From positions 1-52,057 of the forward strand of contig JABDKF010000072.1 in NCBI GenBank assembly GCA_013003155.1: a DNA stretch of 52,057 nt. The letters run 5' to 3'. The stretch's first letter is position 1, and every line of letters begins with the position of its first letter. This document shows, piece after piece, positions 34,309 through 38,644 of this stretch. The position numbers and the translations under genes were made by a program. The stretch is from Woeseia sp. GTDB taxonomy: Bacteria; Pseudomonadota; Gammaproteobacteria; Steroidobacterales; Woeseiaceae. The notes under the pieces were generated by a model, which did not search any database, was not told where the DNA came from, and worked only from the letters and a program-made list of their open reading frames with translations.

Positions 34309-35034
34309 ATGACCCCCGCTGTGCGAATCGTGCTGGTTGGAACCACCCATCCAGGCAACATCGGCGCCTGTGCCCGGGCGATGAAAAACATGGGGCTTGC
34401 GGACCTGGCGCTGGTGCAGCCGCGCTATTTTCCGCATGAGGATGCGACCGCGCGTGCTTCGGGCGCCACAGATGTGCTCGATGCGGCCCGGGTTTTCGAT
34501 ACGCTGGATGAGGCCATCGGCGGCTGTATCTACGTTGCCGGCGCAAGTGCACGCTCGCGCACCATCGGTTGGCCTACGCTTTTGCCGCGCGAGTGTGCGC
34601 AAGAATTGCTGAAACAGGCGCAAACCGGCACGGTCGCGGTGGTCTTCGGGCCGGAGAAATCCGGGTTGACGAATGACGACCTGGATCGTTGCCATACTTT
34701 GTTGACCATACCGACCGATCCCGACTTTAGTTCGCTTAACCTCGCAATGGCGGTGCAGGTACTGACCTACGAAATGCGAGTGGCACTGCTGAACGGCACC
34801 GTGCCGACTTTTGCGCCTGAGGCGCCGCTCGCCACCGCGGCAGAGCTCGAGCATTTCTATTCACACCTTGAGCAAGTCATGACACGCAGTGGCTTCCTGG
34901 ATCCGGCCAACCCGCGGCACCTGATGCGCCGCCTGCGCCGGCTTTTCGTGCGTGCCGCGCCGGACCAGAACGAGATTAATATCTTGCGCGGCTTGCTGGC
35001 GGCGCTTGACCCGGCAAAGCAGGGCGATCGCTAG
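34309..35034 (+). CDS. trmJ: tRNA (cytidine/uridine-2'-O-)-methyltransferase TrmJ
   Basis: SPOUT-fold enzyme methylating the ribose of residue 32 in tRNA. The 241 residues include IVLVGTTHPGNIGACARAMK, VVFGPEKSGLTNDDL and the knot motif IPTDPDFSSLNLAMAVQVL, then a C-terminal helical extension with DPANPRHLMRRLRRLF. In E. coli the gene sits just before iscR-iscSUA; here iscS follows directly and iscR is absent. Confidence 0.95.
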   Translation: MTPAVRIVLVGTTHPGNIGACARAMKNMGLADLALVQPRYFPHEDATARASGATDVLDAARVFDTLDEAIGGCIYVAGASARSRTIGWPTLLPRECAQELLKQAQTGTVAVVFGPEKSGLTNDDLDRCHTLLTIPTDPDFSSLNLAMAVQVLTYEMRVALLNGTVPTFAPEAPLATAAELEHFYSHLEQVMTRSGFLDPANPRHLMRRLRRLFVRAAPDQNEINILRGLLAALDPAKQGDR

Positions 35035-35048
35035 TGTCGGACTCGTCT

Positions 35049-36227
35049 ATGCCCCGCGCAATTTATCTCGATCATGCGGCGACCACGCCGGTGGCAACGG
35101 AAGCCGTTAGCGCAATGACGAAGTGCCTCGAGGACCCGCTGCGCTTTGCAAATCCGTCCTCTATTCATGCCGCCGGCCAGGCGGCGGCCAGCGAAGAGAA
35201 GCACGCGCGCGAGCAAGTGGCGAACTTGATCGGTGCCGACCCTGCAACTCTTTTGTGGACGTCAGGTGCGACGGAGGCGAACAACCTTGCCATACTTGGC
35301 GGAGCCCGCTTTCGCGCGCATCGTGGCCGCCACCTGGTGACGATGCGAACCGAGCACAAGGCCGTCGTTGATCCGTTCAAAGCACTGGAAAAAAACGGAT
35401 ATGAGGTGACCTGGTTGACGCCCGATGCCGGTGGTTTGCTGTCTTTCGACGAACTGCGTGCCGCAATTCGCAATGACACACAGCTGGTGTCGATCATGCA
35501 CGTCAACAACGAGACCGGCGTAATCCAGGACGTCGGGGCCATTGGTGAATTGTGTCGCGAACACGATGTTCTCTACCACTGCGATGCGGCGCAATCTGCC
35601 GGAAAATTGCCGCTGGATGTGATGTCCGCAAAAATAGATTTGTTGTCGCTGACCGCGCACAAATTTTACGGTCCCCCTGGCATTGGTGCCTTGTATATAG
35701 CCAATCGCGACGGCTGCGGCGTCGAACCAATCCTGTACGGCGGCGGTCAACAGCGGCGATTGCGACCCGGCACGTTACCAGTGCATTTAATCGCCGGTTG
35801 TGGCGCAGCCGCCGGGCTGATGGCGAACAACAGGAGTCGCAATCTCGCGCATGTGCAAAAGTTATACGAGGTGCTGTGGGACGGAATTAAAGGTTTGCCT
35901 GATATTTTTCTCAACGGCAATGCGGAGCAGCATTTCCCCGGCATCCTGAACGTCAGTGCTGCAGGTGTGGAGGGTGAGAGCTTGCTGCTGGCGCTTGAGC
36001 CATTGTGCGTCGCCAGCGGCTCGGCCTGTAACTCACTGAGTAGCGAGCCCTCCTATGTATTGCGGGCCCTGGGGCGGTCCGATCAACTGGCGCAAAGTGC
36101 CATTCGCTTTAGCTTTGGGCACGACACCGCACTCAAGGACATTGAATTCGCCCGGGATCGCTATATATCTGCGGTGAGGCGGCTGCGCGAGGTCGCGCCG
36201 CCTGCTCACCAGGATAGCCGCGCATGA
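35049..36227 (+). CDS. iscS: Cysteine desulfurase IscS
   Basis: PLP enzyme that takes sulfur from cysteine as an enzyme persulfide and supplies Fe-S assembly and tRNA thiolation. The 392 residues show YLDHAATTPV, MHVNNETGVIQD, HCDAAQSAGK, the PLP lysine in LTAHKFYGPPGIG, GGGQQRRLRPGT, and the catalytic-cysteine loop ASGSACNSLSSEPSYVL. ATG 35049 matches the spacing to YLD in IscS; a GTG at 35034 overlapping the trmJ stop is an alternative. It overlaps the IscU-like gene by four bases. Confidence 0.93.
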   Translation: MPRAIYLDHAATTPVATEAVSAMTKCLEDPLRFANPSSIHAAGQAAASEEKHAREQVANLIGADPATLLWTSGATEANNLAILGGARFRAHRGRHLVTMRTEHKAVVDPFKALEKNGYEVTWLTPDAGGLLSFDELRAAIRNDTQLVSIMHVNNETGVIQDVGAIGELCREHDVLYHCDAAQSAGKLPLDVMSAKIDLLSLTAHKFYGPPGIGALYIANRDGCGVEPILYGGGQQRRLRPGTLPVHLIAGCGAAAGLMANNRSRNLAHVQKLYEVLWDGIKGLPDIFLNGNAEQHFPGILNVSAAGVEGESLLLALEPLCVASGSACNSLSSEPSYVLRALGRSDQLAQSAIRFSFGHDTALKDIEFARDRYISAVRRLREVAPPAHQDSRA

Positions 36228-36592
36228 CCGCCGCAACGACCTATAACGAACGCGTTCGGCAATTGTTCGCTGCGCCCGCCCACGTCGGCAATCTCGGTGG
36301 CCCAGTTGCCGACGTCGCTCGTGGCGGCAGCCGCGTTGTGTTGAGCGCGGAAATTGAAGGCACTCAGGTCAAGCGACTGGCGTTTCGGGCGTTTGGCTGC
36401 CCGCACCTGATCGCGGCCGCCGAGCGCTTTTGTGATGAATTCGAGGGTCGCCCGGCCAGGGATATGACAGCATCCCCTGCGCGCGATTCTTTGCAAGAAC
36501 TTGAAATTCCTGTCGAGAAAACCGGTCAAATCCTCTTATTGGAGGATGCGGCGCTCGCGCTACAGGCAAGTATTGCAGCACGCTACTCGTAA
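36224..36592 (+). CDS. IscU-like protein lacking two of three cluster cysteines
   Basis: 122 residues in the genomic position of IscU and alignable over its length (YNERVRQLFAAPAHVGNL; FRAFGCPHLIAAAERF). IscU binds its cluster with three cysteines and an aspartate. Here the ACGD motif reads ARGG, the GCGSAI cysteine is kept (FGCPHLI, residue 59), and the third position (HCSILAEDA in IscU) reads GQILLLEDA. The LPPVK HscA-binding motif is also lost (EIPVEK). One extra cysteine occurs at 70. Coupled to iscS by ATGA. It may retain IscS binding and persulfide acceptance without holding a conventional cluster. Confidence 0.82.
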   Translation: MTAATTYNERVRQLFAAPAHVGNLGGPVADVARGGSRVVLSAEIEGTQVKRLAFRAFGCPHLIAAAERFCDEFEGRPARDMTASPARDSLQELEIPVEKTGQILLLEDAALALQASIAARYS

Positions 36593-36613: not shown

Positions 36614-36937
36614 ATGGCATTATCACTCACATCTCCTGCCGCTGAACGCGTCAAAAGCTACCTGGATGCCCGCGGCAGCGGCATCGGACTGCGCGTGGGC
36701 GTCAAGAAAACCGGCTGCAACGGCTTCGCGTATATCGTCAATTACGCTGATTCGGCGAACGACAGCGATGCTATTTTCGAAGATCGCGGGGTCAAGCTCG
36801 TCGTCGACAAAAAGAGCCTCGAGCTGATCGACGGGACGGAAATCGACTTCGTCAAGGAAGGCCTGAACGAGGCATTTCGCTTCCGCAACCCGAACATCAA
36901 GGGAGAATGCGGCTGCGGTGAGAGTTTTAGCGTCTGA
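36614..36937 (+). CDS. iscA: A-type iron-sulfur carrier IscA
   Basis: Fe-S carrier delivering clusters to apoproteins; 107 residues with all three cysteines of the family: KKTGCNGFAYIVNYAD and the C-terminal GECGCGESFSV. The FxxGxGESF-type tail fits IscA. It lies 21 bases after the IscU-like gene and ends the cluster; hscB, hscA and fdx do not follow. Confidence 0.93.
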   Translation: MALSLTSPAAERVKSYLDARGSGIGLRVGVKKTGCNGFAYIVNYADSANDSDAIFEDRGVKLVVDKKSLELIDGTEIDFVKEGLNEAFRFRNPNIKGECGCGESFSV

Positions 36938-37078: not shown

Positions 37079-37510
37079 ATGTCCGTTGAGCAAACGCTCT
37101 CGATTATCAAGCCCGATGGTGTCCAGAAAAACCTGATTGGCGAAATTTACTCCCGTTTCGAAAAAGCAGGCCTGGAGATTGTCGCCGCCAGGATGCTGCG
37201 TCTCAGCAAGCAACAGGCCGAAGGTTTTTACGCGGTGCATGCGGAGCGGCCCTTTTTTAAAGATCTCGTCAGCTACATGACATCCGGTCCGGTCATGGTT
37301 CAGGCGCTGCAGGGCGAGGACGCCATCGCAAAGAATCGCCAGATCATGGGGGCGACGAACCCGGCGGAAGCCGACAAAGGCACCATTCGCGCAGATTTTG
37401 CCGATAGTATCGAAGAGAATATCGTTCACGGCTCGGATGCTGCAGACACCGCGCAACAGGAAATTGCGTTTTTCTTCGGCGATGACGGCGTTTGCGAGAG
37501 GACACGCTGA
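37079..37510 (+). CDS. ndk: Nucleoside diphosphate kinase
   Basis: Balances NTP pools by phosphate transfer through a histidine. 143 residues with [18 protein letters not shown], the [17 protein letters not shown] block, and the catalytic His in [17 protein letters not shown]. First of the ndk-rlmN-pilF-rodZ-hisS run, with AAGGAATTC about eight bases upstream. Confidence 0.97.
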
Positions 37511-37537: not shown

Positions 37538-38644
37538 ATGAACCCTGCCAGCCAAAAACAAAATCTGCTCGGCCTGCCACAAGGTGGGCTGGAAGCGTTG
37601 CTGGCCGAGTTCGGCGAAAAGCCTTACCGCGCGCGGCAACTGCTGCAGTGGTTGCATCAGCGTGGCGCTGCGGATTTCGAATCAATGACAGATCTACCAA
37701 AAAAGCTGCGTGAACGGTTAGAGACAGCGGCTGTCATCGATGGCCCCACATTAATGTCGGAAAAAGTGTCTGCTGACGGCACCGTAAAGTGGCTGTTCCT
37801 GTCCGGTGCCGGACAGGCTGTAGAGACGGTTTTTATCCCGGAAGCAGCGCGCGGCACCTTATGCATTTCTTCACAGGTTGGCTGCGCGCTCGACTGCGCC
37901 TTTTGCGCTACCGGTGCGCAAGGGTTCAATCGCAATCTGACAACGGCTGAGATAGTCGGCCAGGTCAATCATGCAAATCGCACCTTGCCACGACGGAGCA
38001 ATGGCGAAGCCGCGATTACCAATGTCGTTTTCATGGGCATGGGCGAGCCGCTGGCCAATTACCGCAACTTGCGGCCGGCGATCGAGCTGCTGATTTCCGA
38101 CCACGCGTACGGGCTGTCGCGGCGTCGTGTCACGGTCAGTACGTCCGGGATCGTGCCGCAAATCGACAAGCTCGGCGACGAATGCAATGTTTCTCTCGCT
38201 GTCTCCTTGCATGCGCCTAACGACGCTTTGCGGAATCGTCTGGTGCCGATAAATCGGGTACACCCTATTGCCGAGTTGCTCGATGCCTGCTGGCGGTATG
38301 CAGACAAGCACGCACGGCGTTTTATTACCTTCGAGTACGTCATGCTGCGCGGCGTGAATGACGGCACACAACATGCAGAACAACTGGCAGATTTACTGAA
38401 TAACAAACCGGCAAAAGTGAATCTGATCCCGTTTAACCCGTTTCCGGGCAATGAGTTCAAGCGTTCATCCCGCGACACCATCGAACACTTCCAAAACCGA
38501 CTGCGTGCAAGAGGCCTCGTGGCGACGACACGCAAGACGCGCGGCGACGATATCGACGCAGCCTGTGGACAACTCGCAGGTAAAGTAAAGGATCGAATAC
38601 GCGTGCGGCTTAGTGAAAAGAACAGCAGAGTGGTATCGGCATGA
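37538..38644 (+). CDS. rlmN: Dual-specificity RNA methyltransferase RlmN
   Basis: Radical-SAM enzyme making 2-methyladenosine in 23S rRNA (A2503) and tRNA (A37). The 368 residues include the cluster motif [44 protein letters not shown], and the C-terminal catalytic cysteine in [10 protein letters not shown]; the first catalytic cysteine is in [11 protein letters not shown]. The stop overlaps the pilF start (ATGA). Confidence 0.96.

Follow-up and report, generated by a model that had tools for sequence, protein, structure and literature searches.

Organization of the isc locus

The window analysed here, a stretch of 52,057 nucleotides from Woeseia sp. (contig JABDKF010000072.1), contains an isc locus in which the gene downstream of iscS encodes an IscU homologue without the cluster site. 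We call this gene, located at 36224..36592 on the forward strand and encoding 122 aa, iscU*, and its product IscU*. The genes of the region run in the order suhB (reverse strand), trmJ, iscS, iscU*, iscA, ndk, rlmN, pilW, rodZ, and hisS. Upstream of the isc genes, trmJ (34309..35034, forward strand; NCBIfam PRK15114, 3.3e-83) serves as a marker, and ndk (37079..37510) and rlmN (37538..38644), both on the forward strand, mark the downstream side; the synteny of trmJ and rlmN is conserved among relatives. iscS (35034..36227, forward strand) starts with GTG and encodes a cysteine desulfurase with the active-site Cys332 at 36027-36029, and iscA (36614..36937, forward strand) encodes an A-type carrier (NCBIfam PRK09502, 1.5e-45; TIGR02011, 1.7e-44). 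None of hscB, hscA, fdx, and iscX was found between iscA and ndk in the window. The neighbourhood resembles the usual one of E. coli and Pseudomonas, minus iscR, hscB, hscA, fdx, and iscX.

Both in the window and in the loci of its relatives, iscU* takes the place of iscU in the order iscS-iscU-iscA. Homologues were found at the same place in 60 of 60 relatives, with unchanged gene order across the relatives' loci examined. The ATG of iscU* at 36224 overlaps the iscS stop codon TGA (36225-36227) in an ATGA junction, and a start with this 4-base overlap was present in 26 relatives' loci among those examined, so the iscS/iscU* junction is conserved. An earlier note on this DNA had described an IscU-like protein in the iscU position, translationally coupled to iscS. 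Its open reading frame, coordinates, and gene context were all confirmed, and coupling itself is what we infer from the conserved overlap.

Homology of IscU* to IscU

The only Pfam match of IscU* was NifU_N (PF01592), for which the protein scored 22.0 bits, exactly at the cut-off of 22, and 21.4 bits in the genome search, while its relatives pass; PF01206 (TusA) was not matched. Against the NCBIfam iscU model (TIGR01999), IscU* scored 20.3 bits compared to a cut-off of 192.4, which places it outside that family. A profile of IscU* built from 30 relatives, however, matched canonical IscU with 99.5% probability and an E value of 5.5e-23, and IscU* is on this basis a homologue of IscU. Since the match spans residues 5-121 of 122, it also upholds the end-to-end alignment that had been proposed from the single sequence. 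IscU, IscS, and SufE of E. coli served as reference sequences, and the first two were consistent with PDB alignments. AlphaFold, run on two sequences, gave a pLDDT of 44 and no reliable structure. No description of an IscU*-type protein was found in the literature searched, which covered phylogenomic surveys incompletely.

Loss of the ligand site

Residue conservation was counted over 61 sequences, the window and 60 relatives of the same order, and is given in E. coli IscU numbering. At the informative positions the window protein has G37, G38, S39, C63, P64, H65, P100, K103, G105, and Q106, and thus retains one of the five ligands C37, D39, C63, H105, and C106, namely C63 (Cys59 of IscU*). 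C37 and D39 were lost in all 61 sequences, H105 in 60, and C106 in 59, while C63 was kept in 58 and P64 in all 61. The 58 sequences detected by similarity all combine C63 and P64 with the loss of the other ligands.

The remnant of the ACGD motif lies at 36320..36331 (forward strand) and reads Arg33 Gly34 Gly35 Ser36, with C37 and D39 lost (0/61 each) and G38 kept (54/61). The earlier note had read Cys37 as changed to Arg and Asp39 to Gly; both losses hold, but the clade-wide alignment assigns the replacements to Gly34 and Ser36 rather than Arg33 and Gly35. At 36506..36529 (forward strand), the counterpart of LPPVKIHC is IPVEKTGQ, in which Pro96 (P100) and Lys99 (K103) are kept, H105 is replaced by Gly101, and C106 by Gln102. 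The change of Cys106 to Gln was therefore read correctly, and H105, missing from the earlier list of lost ligands, has to be added to it. To call the HscA-binding LPPVK gone was too strong, since IPVEK has altered P101 and V102 and retains P100 (60/61) and K103 (54/61, with Arg in 4), which are among the best-conserved positions of the protein.

As had been noted, the C63 equivalent and one extra cysteine remain, and Cys59 and Cys70 are the sole cysteines of IscU*. Cys59 (36398..36400, forward strand) is followed by Pro60 and His61, the latter at position 65, which is His in 46 of 61 sequences and Tyr in 8. Cys70 (36431..36433, forward strand) is a feature of the window's family, in which it occurs in 36 of 37 members, compared to 3 of 24 elsewhere in the order. 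The one family member without Cys70, G007, is also without C63.

With these ligands gone, cluster assembly on IscU* is unlikely. A cluster or metal might still be bound through new ligands, for example in a dimer with Cys59 and His61 contributed by each subunit, and the GCPH motif would fit such a site, as would Tyr3, which is kept in 55 of 61 sequences and which human ISCU2 needs for dimerisation (PMC8617193). His61 is the best candidate besides C63, but His occupies its position in only 46 sequences, and no conserved Cys, His, or Asp was found near the site in the 61 sequences beyond those that IscU also has. As SUF and SufU are also present in this genome (see below), we consider binding through new ligands highly improbable, and of the roles suggested earlier, a scaffold with a new ligand set is disfavoured by the lack of a conserved ligand set.

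Spread, selection, and origin of the decay

A search with one sequence recovered iscU* in 57 of the 60 relatives, and the remaining three were recovered by gene position. Absence of the gene in these three (G007, G047, and G049) proved a wrong reading: all of them carry it between iscS and iscA, in a form too diverged for BLAST to detect and with C63 replaced by Gly in G007, Pro in G047, and Asn in G049. C63 was considered as a universal residue, and this was rejected, as it is lost in these three genomes and in other orders. A sequencing or frame error at iscU* is ruled out by about 60 homologues.

The dN/dS ratio was 0.10-0.34 in nine close pairs, measured over the iscU* domain because the overlap with iscS inflates values for the whole open frame, and iscU* is therefore under purifying selection. 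This bears on whether IscU* could be a decaying relic without function. Divergence is fast, ligand loss is graded, and some lineages have lost even C63, all of which a relic would show; the dN/dS values, the intact frames, the place held in 60 of 60 relatives, the invariant P64 (61/61), and the near-invariant P100 (60/61) speak against it, and we regard a functionless relic as very unlikely.

Loss of the ligands is clade-wide, as the alignment of homologues across relatives showed, and it recurs across the class. Among 143 gammaproteobacterial genomes, sampled mostly at one per family, 58 had a canonical IscU over the cut-off. Outside the window's order, at least 24 gammaproteobacterial families have a decayed IscU in the same place. 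In 22 of the 24 families read it adjoins iscS or is fused to it. C37 was kept in none of the 24, C63 in 6, D39 in 8, H105 in 9, and C106 in 7; C63 was thus lost in 18, and Pro at position 64 was present in 17. Intermediates such as G172, G123, and G126, which have D39 and C106 but have lost C37, indicate that the decay of the ligands is graded. Four loci (L154 in G096, L158 in G083, L163 in G098, and L147 in G087) have two adjacent iscS-like genes next to the decayed iscU.

On the IscS tree, which includes only 21 canonical genomes and is built from a protein that is no independent marker, the canonical-IscU genomes form one clade (support 98) with one state change, so that a single origin of IscU decay is possible. 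C63 has been lost several times, the best tree requiring 11 changes, of which well-supported branches force at least 2.

Partner proteins and the SUF system

Neither HscA nor HscB was found over the cut-off in any of the 60 relatives, in searches that included the window's genome (G000); the matches obtained were DnaK-like proteins and J-domain proteins, respectively. CyaY was likewise found in 0 of 60, with E. coli as positive control. TusA was present in 11 of the 60 genomes (G000 to G059) and missing from 49. IscS therefore appears to have lost most of its known partners.

SufB was found in 57 of 60 relatives. The window's genome has SufB, and on contig C66 it encodes SufD, SufS, SufU, and SufT. 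On the same contig (L001:203-3015), sufS-sufU-sufT is followed by a gene that was named by eye as a SixA-like phosphohistidine phosphatase. As the earlier note had proposed, this genome was searched for a second, canonical iscU or suf genes. No canonical iscU was found; the other NifU_N gene, a candidate for it, is sufU, which lies beside sufS and encodes three cysteines and a CGD motif.

The sparse distribution of TusA raises the possibility that IscU* substitutes for it, passing the sulfur of IscS on to MnmA in tRNA thiolation. MnmA was over the cut-off in 54 of 60 genomes (the window's genome, which is 89% complete, yielded a fragment only), so that sulfur may reach 2-thiouridine by some other route than TusA. 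In B. subtilis, however, MnmA can take sulfur directly from a desulfurase, and IscS and MnmA are enough in vitro (PMC11784392). The C63-less genomes G007, G047, and G049, moreover, have MnmA and gave no match to TusA. tRNA thiolation is thus a possible destination for the sulfur that co-occurrence in the C63-less genomes leaves unsupported, and substitution for TusA seems to us unlikely.

Association of IscU* with IscS

In the crystal structure of the E. coli IscS-IscU complex, IscU contacts include Tyr3, Tyr11, Gly38, Val40, Lys42, Lys59-Gly64, and Lys103, and the exchange K103E abolishes binding (PMC2854127). IscU* has Tyr7, Phe15, Gly35, and Lys99 at the positions of Y3, Y11, G38, and K103, and within the order Y3 is kept in 55 of 61 sequences, G38 in 54, and Y11 is Phe in 57. 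Comparison of the E. coli contacts with order-wide conservation thus indicates that the best-kept IscS contacts survive while the cluster ligands are lost. Taken together, the contact positions had a conservation of 0.39 compared to 0.29 for other positions, and because this excess is slight, the argument from contact residues is suggestive, no more.

Fusion of the two genes gives another indication. iscS and iscU* share one open frame in four genomes (G045, G047, G072, and G081). No ATG separates the two parts in G045 and G047, although GTG or TTG/CTG starts are possible; in G072 and G081 the IscU part has an ATG in front of it, and the fusion is ambiguous. The frame of G045 (L056:2991-5387) takes in trmJ, iscS, and iscU* as 799 continuous residues, a possible triple fusion. 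In G047 (L103:1402-2979), iscS continues in frame into an IscU remnant without the N-terminal helix or C63 (GPP for GCP). Synteny, overlap, and open-frame fusions support a direct partnership of IscS and IscU*, and we consider this link well supported, if indirectly.

One observation goes against such docking. The C-terminal segment of E. coli IscS is part of the interface with IscU, and deletion of residues 374/376-404 abolishes binding (PMC2854127). The tail 386-404 (LWEMYKQGVDLNSIEWAHH) was present in 21 of 21 canonical-IscU genomes for which iscS was read, and was missing in every carrier of a decayed IscU, the window included, although G130 and G161 may have remnants of it. Carrier IscS retains residues up to about 385.

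If IscU* is a partner of IscS, it could be a non-catalytic subunit or regulator, acting as a stabiliser, an allosteric activator, or a gatekeeper of the persulfide loop, with a cysteine that is incidental or structural. The gene stays where C63 is lost, the fusions suggest a stable stoichiometry, and Pro at position 64 occurs with or without Cys, in 61 of 61 sequences of the order and 17 of 24 families elsewhere. Such a subunit is a possible but rather doubtful explanation, as C63 (58/61, despite the loss of the other ligands) and Cys70 (36/37) are too constant for an incidental cysteine. In addition, G007 lost C63, Cys70, P100, and K103 together, and these four residues therefore seem tied to one function.

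Comparison with known systems

IscU* resembles IscU (TIGR01999) in full-length homology, in its place between iscS and iscA, and in most key IscS-contact residues, but differs in the loss of C37, D39, H105, and C106, in a score of 20 against a cut-off of 192, and in the missing IscS tail and the HscA, HscB, and CyaY that were not found. Like IscU*, SufU is a NifU_N member, and it works with a cysteine desulfurase and not as a scaffold; its Zn, however, is held by three Cys and an Asp, and it has an insert of 18-21 residues (PMC6006206). IscU* has only Cys59 of the Zn site and no insert between the second and third Cys, and the window's genome encodes a separate SufU in its suf locus.

With SufE and CsdE, IscU* would share its proposed way of working, in which a single essential cysteine accepts the persulfide of a desulfurase. 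In SufE the cysteine lies ahead of the first strand (GCQS) and seems to correspond to IscU C37 and not to C63. Identity with SufE by position was rejected, since the cysteines do not correspond (in an alignment that was non-significant), and the IscU* profile gave no significant match to E. coli SufE. IscU* would also resemble TusA, a small sulfur carrier that binds IscS and has a single acceptor cysteine, but the two proteins fall into different Pfam families, and TusA occupies another docking site on IscS (PMC2854127).

Proposed role of IscU*

Our best explanation is that IscU* is a former Fe-S scaffold that has become a dedicated IscS partner, and for the package as a whole, including a persulfide role for Cys59, our confidence is evenly balanced. 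Gene position, the in-frame fusions with iscS, and the kept contact residues favour a partner role. Homology, ligand loss, conservation, synteny, open-frame fusions, and partner co-loss are observed directly, while docking, persulfide transfer, and the final acceptor are what we infer from them. According to this explanation, SUF, of which SufB, SufD, SufS, SufU, and SufT were seen, would carry out cluster assembly in the window's genome, and after it took over cluster building the old scaffold would have been recast as a helper of IscS. The isc locus would have shrunk to iscS-iscU*-iscA, accompanied by the loss of HscA, HscB, CyaY, and the IscS tail. IscU* would dock on IscS through its retained surface residues and would be unable to bind a cluster. 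In the window's clade, Cys59 would take persulfide sulfur from Cys332 of IscS and pass it on to an acceptor. Alternatively, Cys59 may speed up IscS turnover, as SufE does for SufS, with the cysteine placed differently. The missing IscS segment 386-404, which in E. coli partly contacts IscU, counts against this explanation.

In E. coli IscU, C63 is a candidate persulfide acceptor, about 13.5 Å from the modelled Cys328 and second choice after C37 (PMC2854127). The acceptor of human ISCU2 is C138 (PMC8617193), the counterpart of C106, which is lost in the window's IscU*. Within the order, the presence of C63 in 58 of 61 sequences favours a thiol function, as does, in the window's own family, the additional cysteine present in 36 of 37 members, and Cys59 of the window's clade probably accepts persulfide sulfur from IscS, although lineages without the cysteine weaken this. 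Since C63 is gone in G007, G049, G047, and 18 of 24 other-order families, whatever function all members share cannot depend on a thiol, and the base function of the family presumably needs no C63. Of the roles suggested earlier, persulfide acceptor and IscS regulator both stay compatible with these data.

For the class as a whole we suggest, more tentatively and with somewhat less than even confidence, that in SUF-reliant Gammaproteobacteria the isc locus was repeatedly converted from cluster building into an IscS sulfur-delivery unit with a ligand-less IscU as dedicated effector of IscS. The window's order would represent a one-cysteine persulfide carrier, with two conserved cysteines in the window's own family, and a sulfur-relay family not yet described.

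IscU is among the most conserved Fe-S proteins, and its cysteines have been treated as its essence. Families across the class in which selection maintains iscU in the absence of these cysteines would offer natural separation-of-function variants, which set the service of IscU to IscS apart from clusters. Annotation pipelines may wrongly label such genomes as ISC-positive, affecting surveys of ISC versus SUF. Finally, because the IscS tail tracks canonical as opposed to decayed IscU, being found in 21 of 21 canonical-IscU genomes and, possible remnants in G130 and G161 aside, in no decayed carrier, its distribution points to the purpose of this tail.
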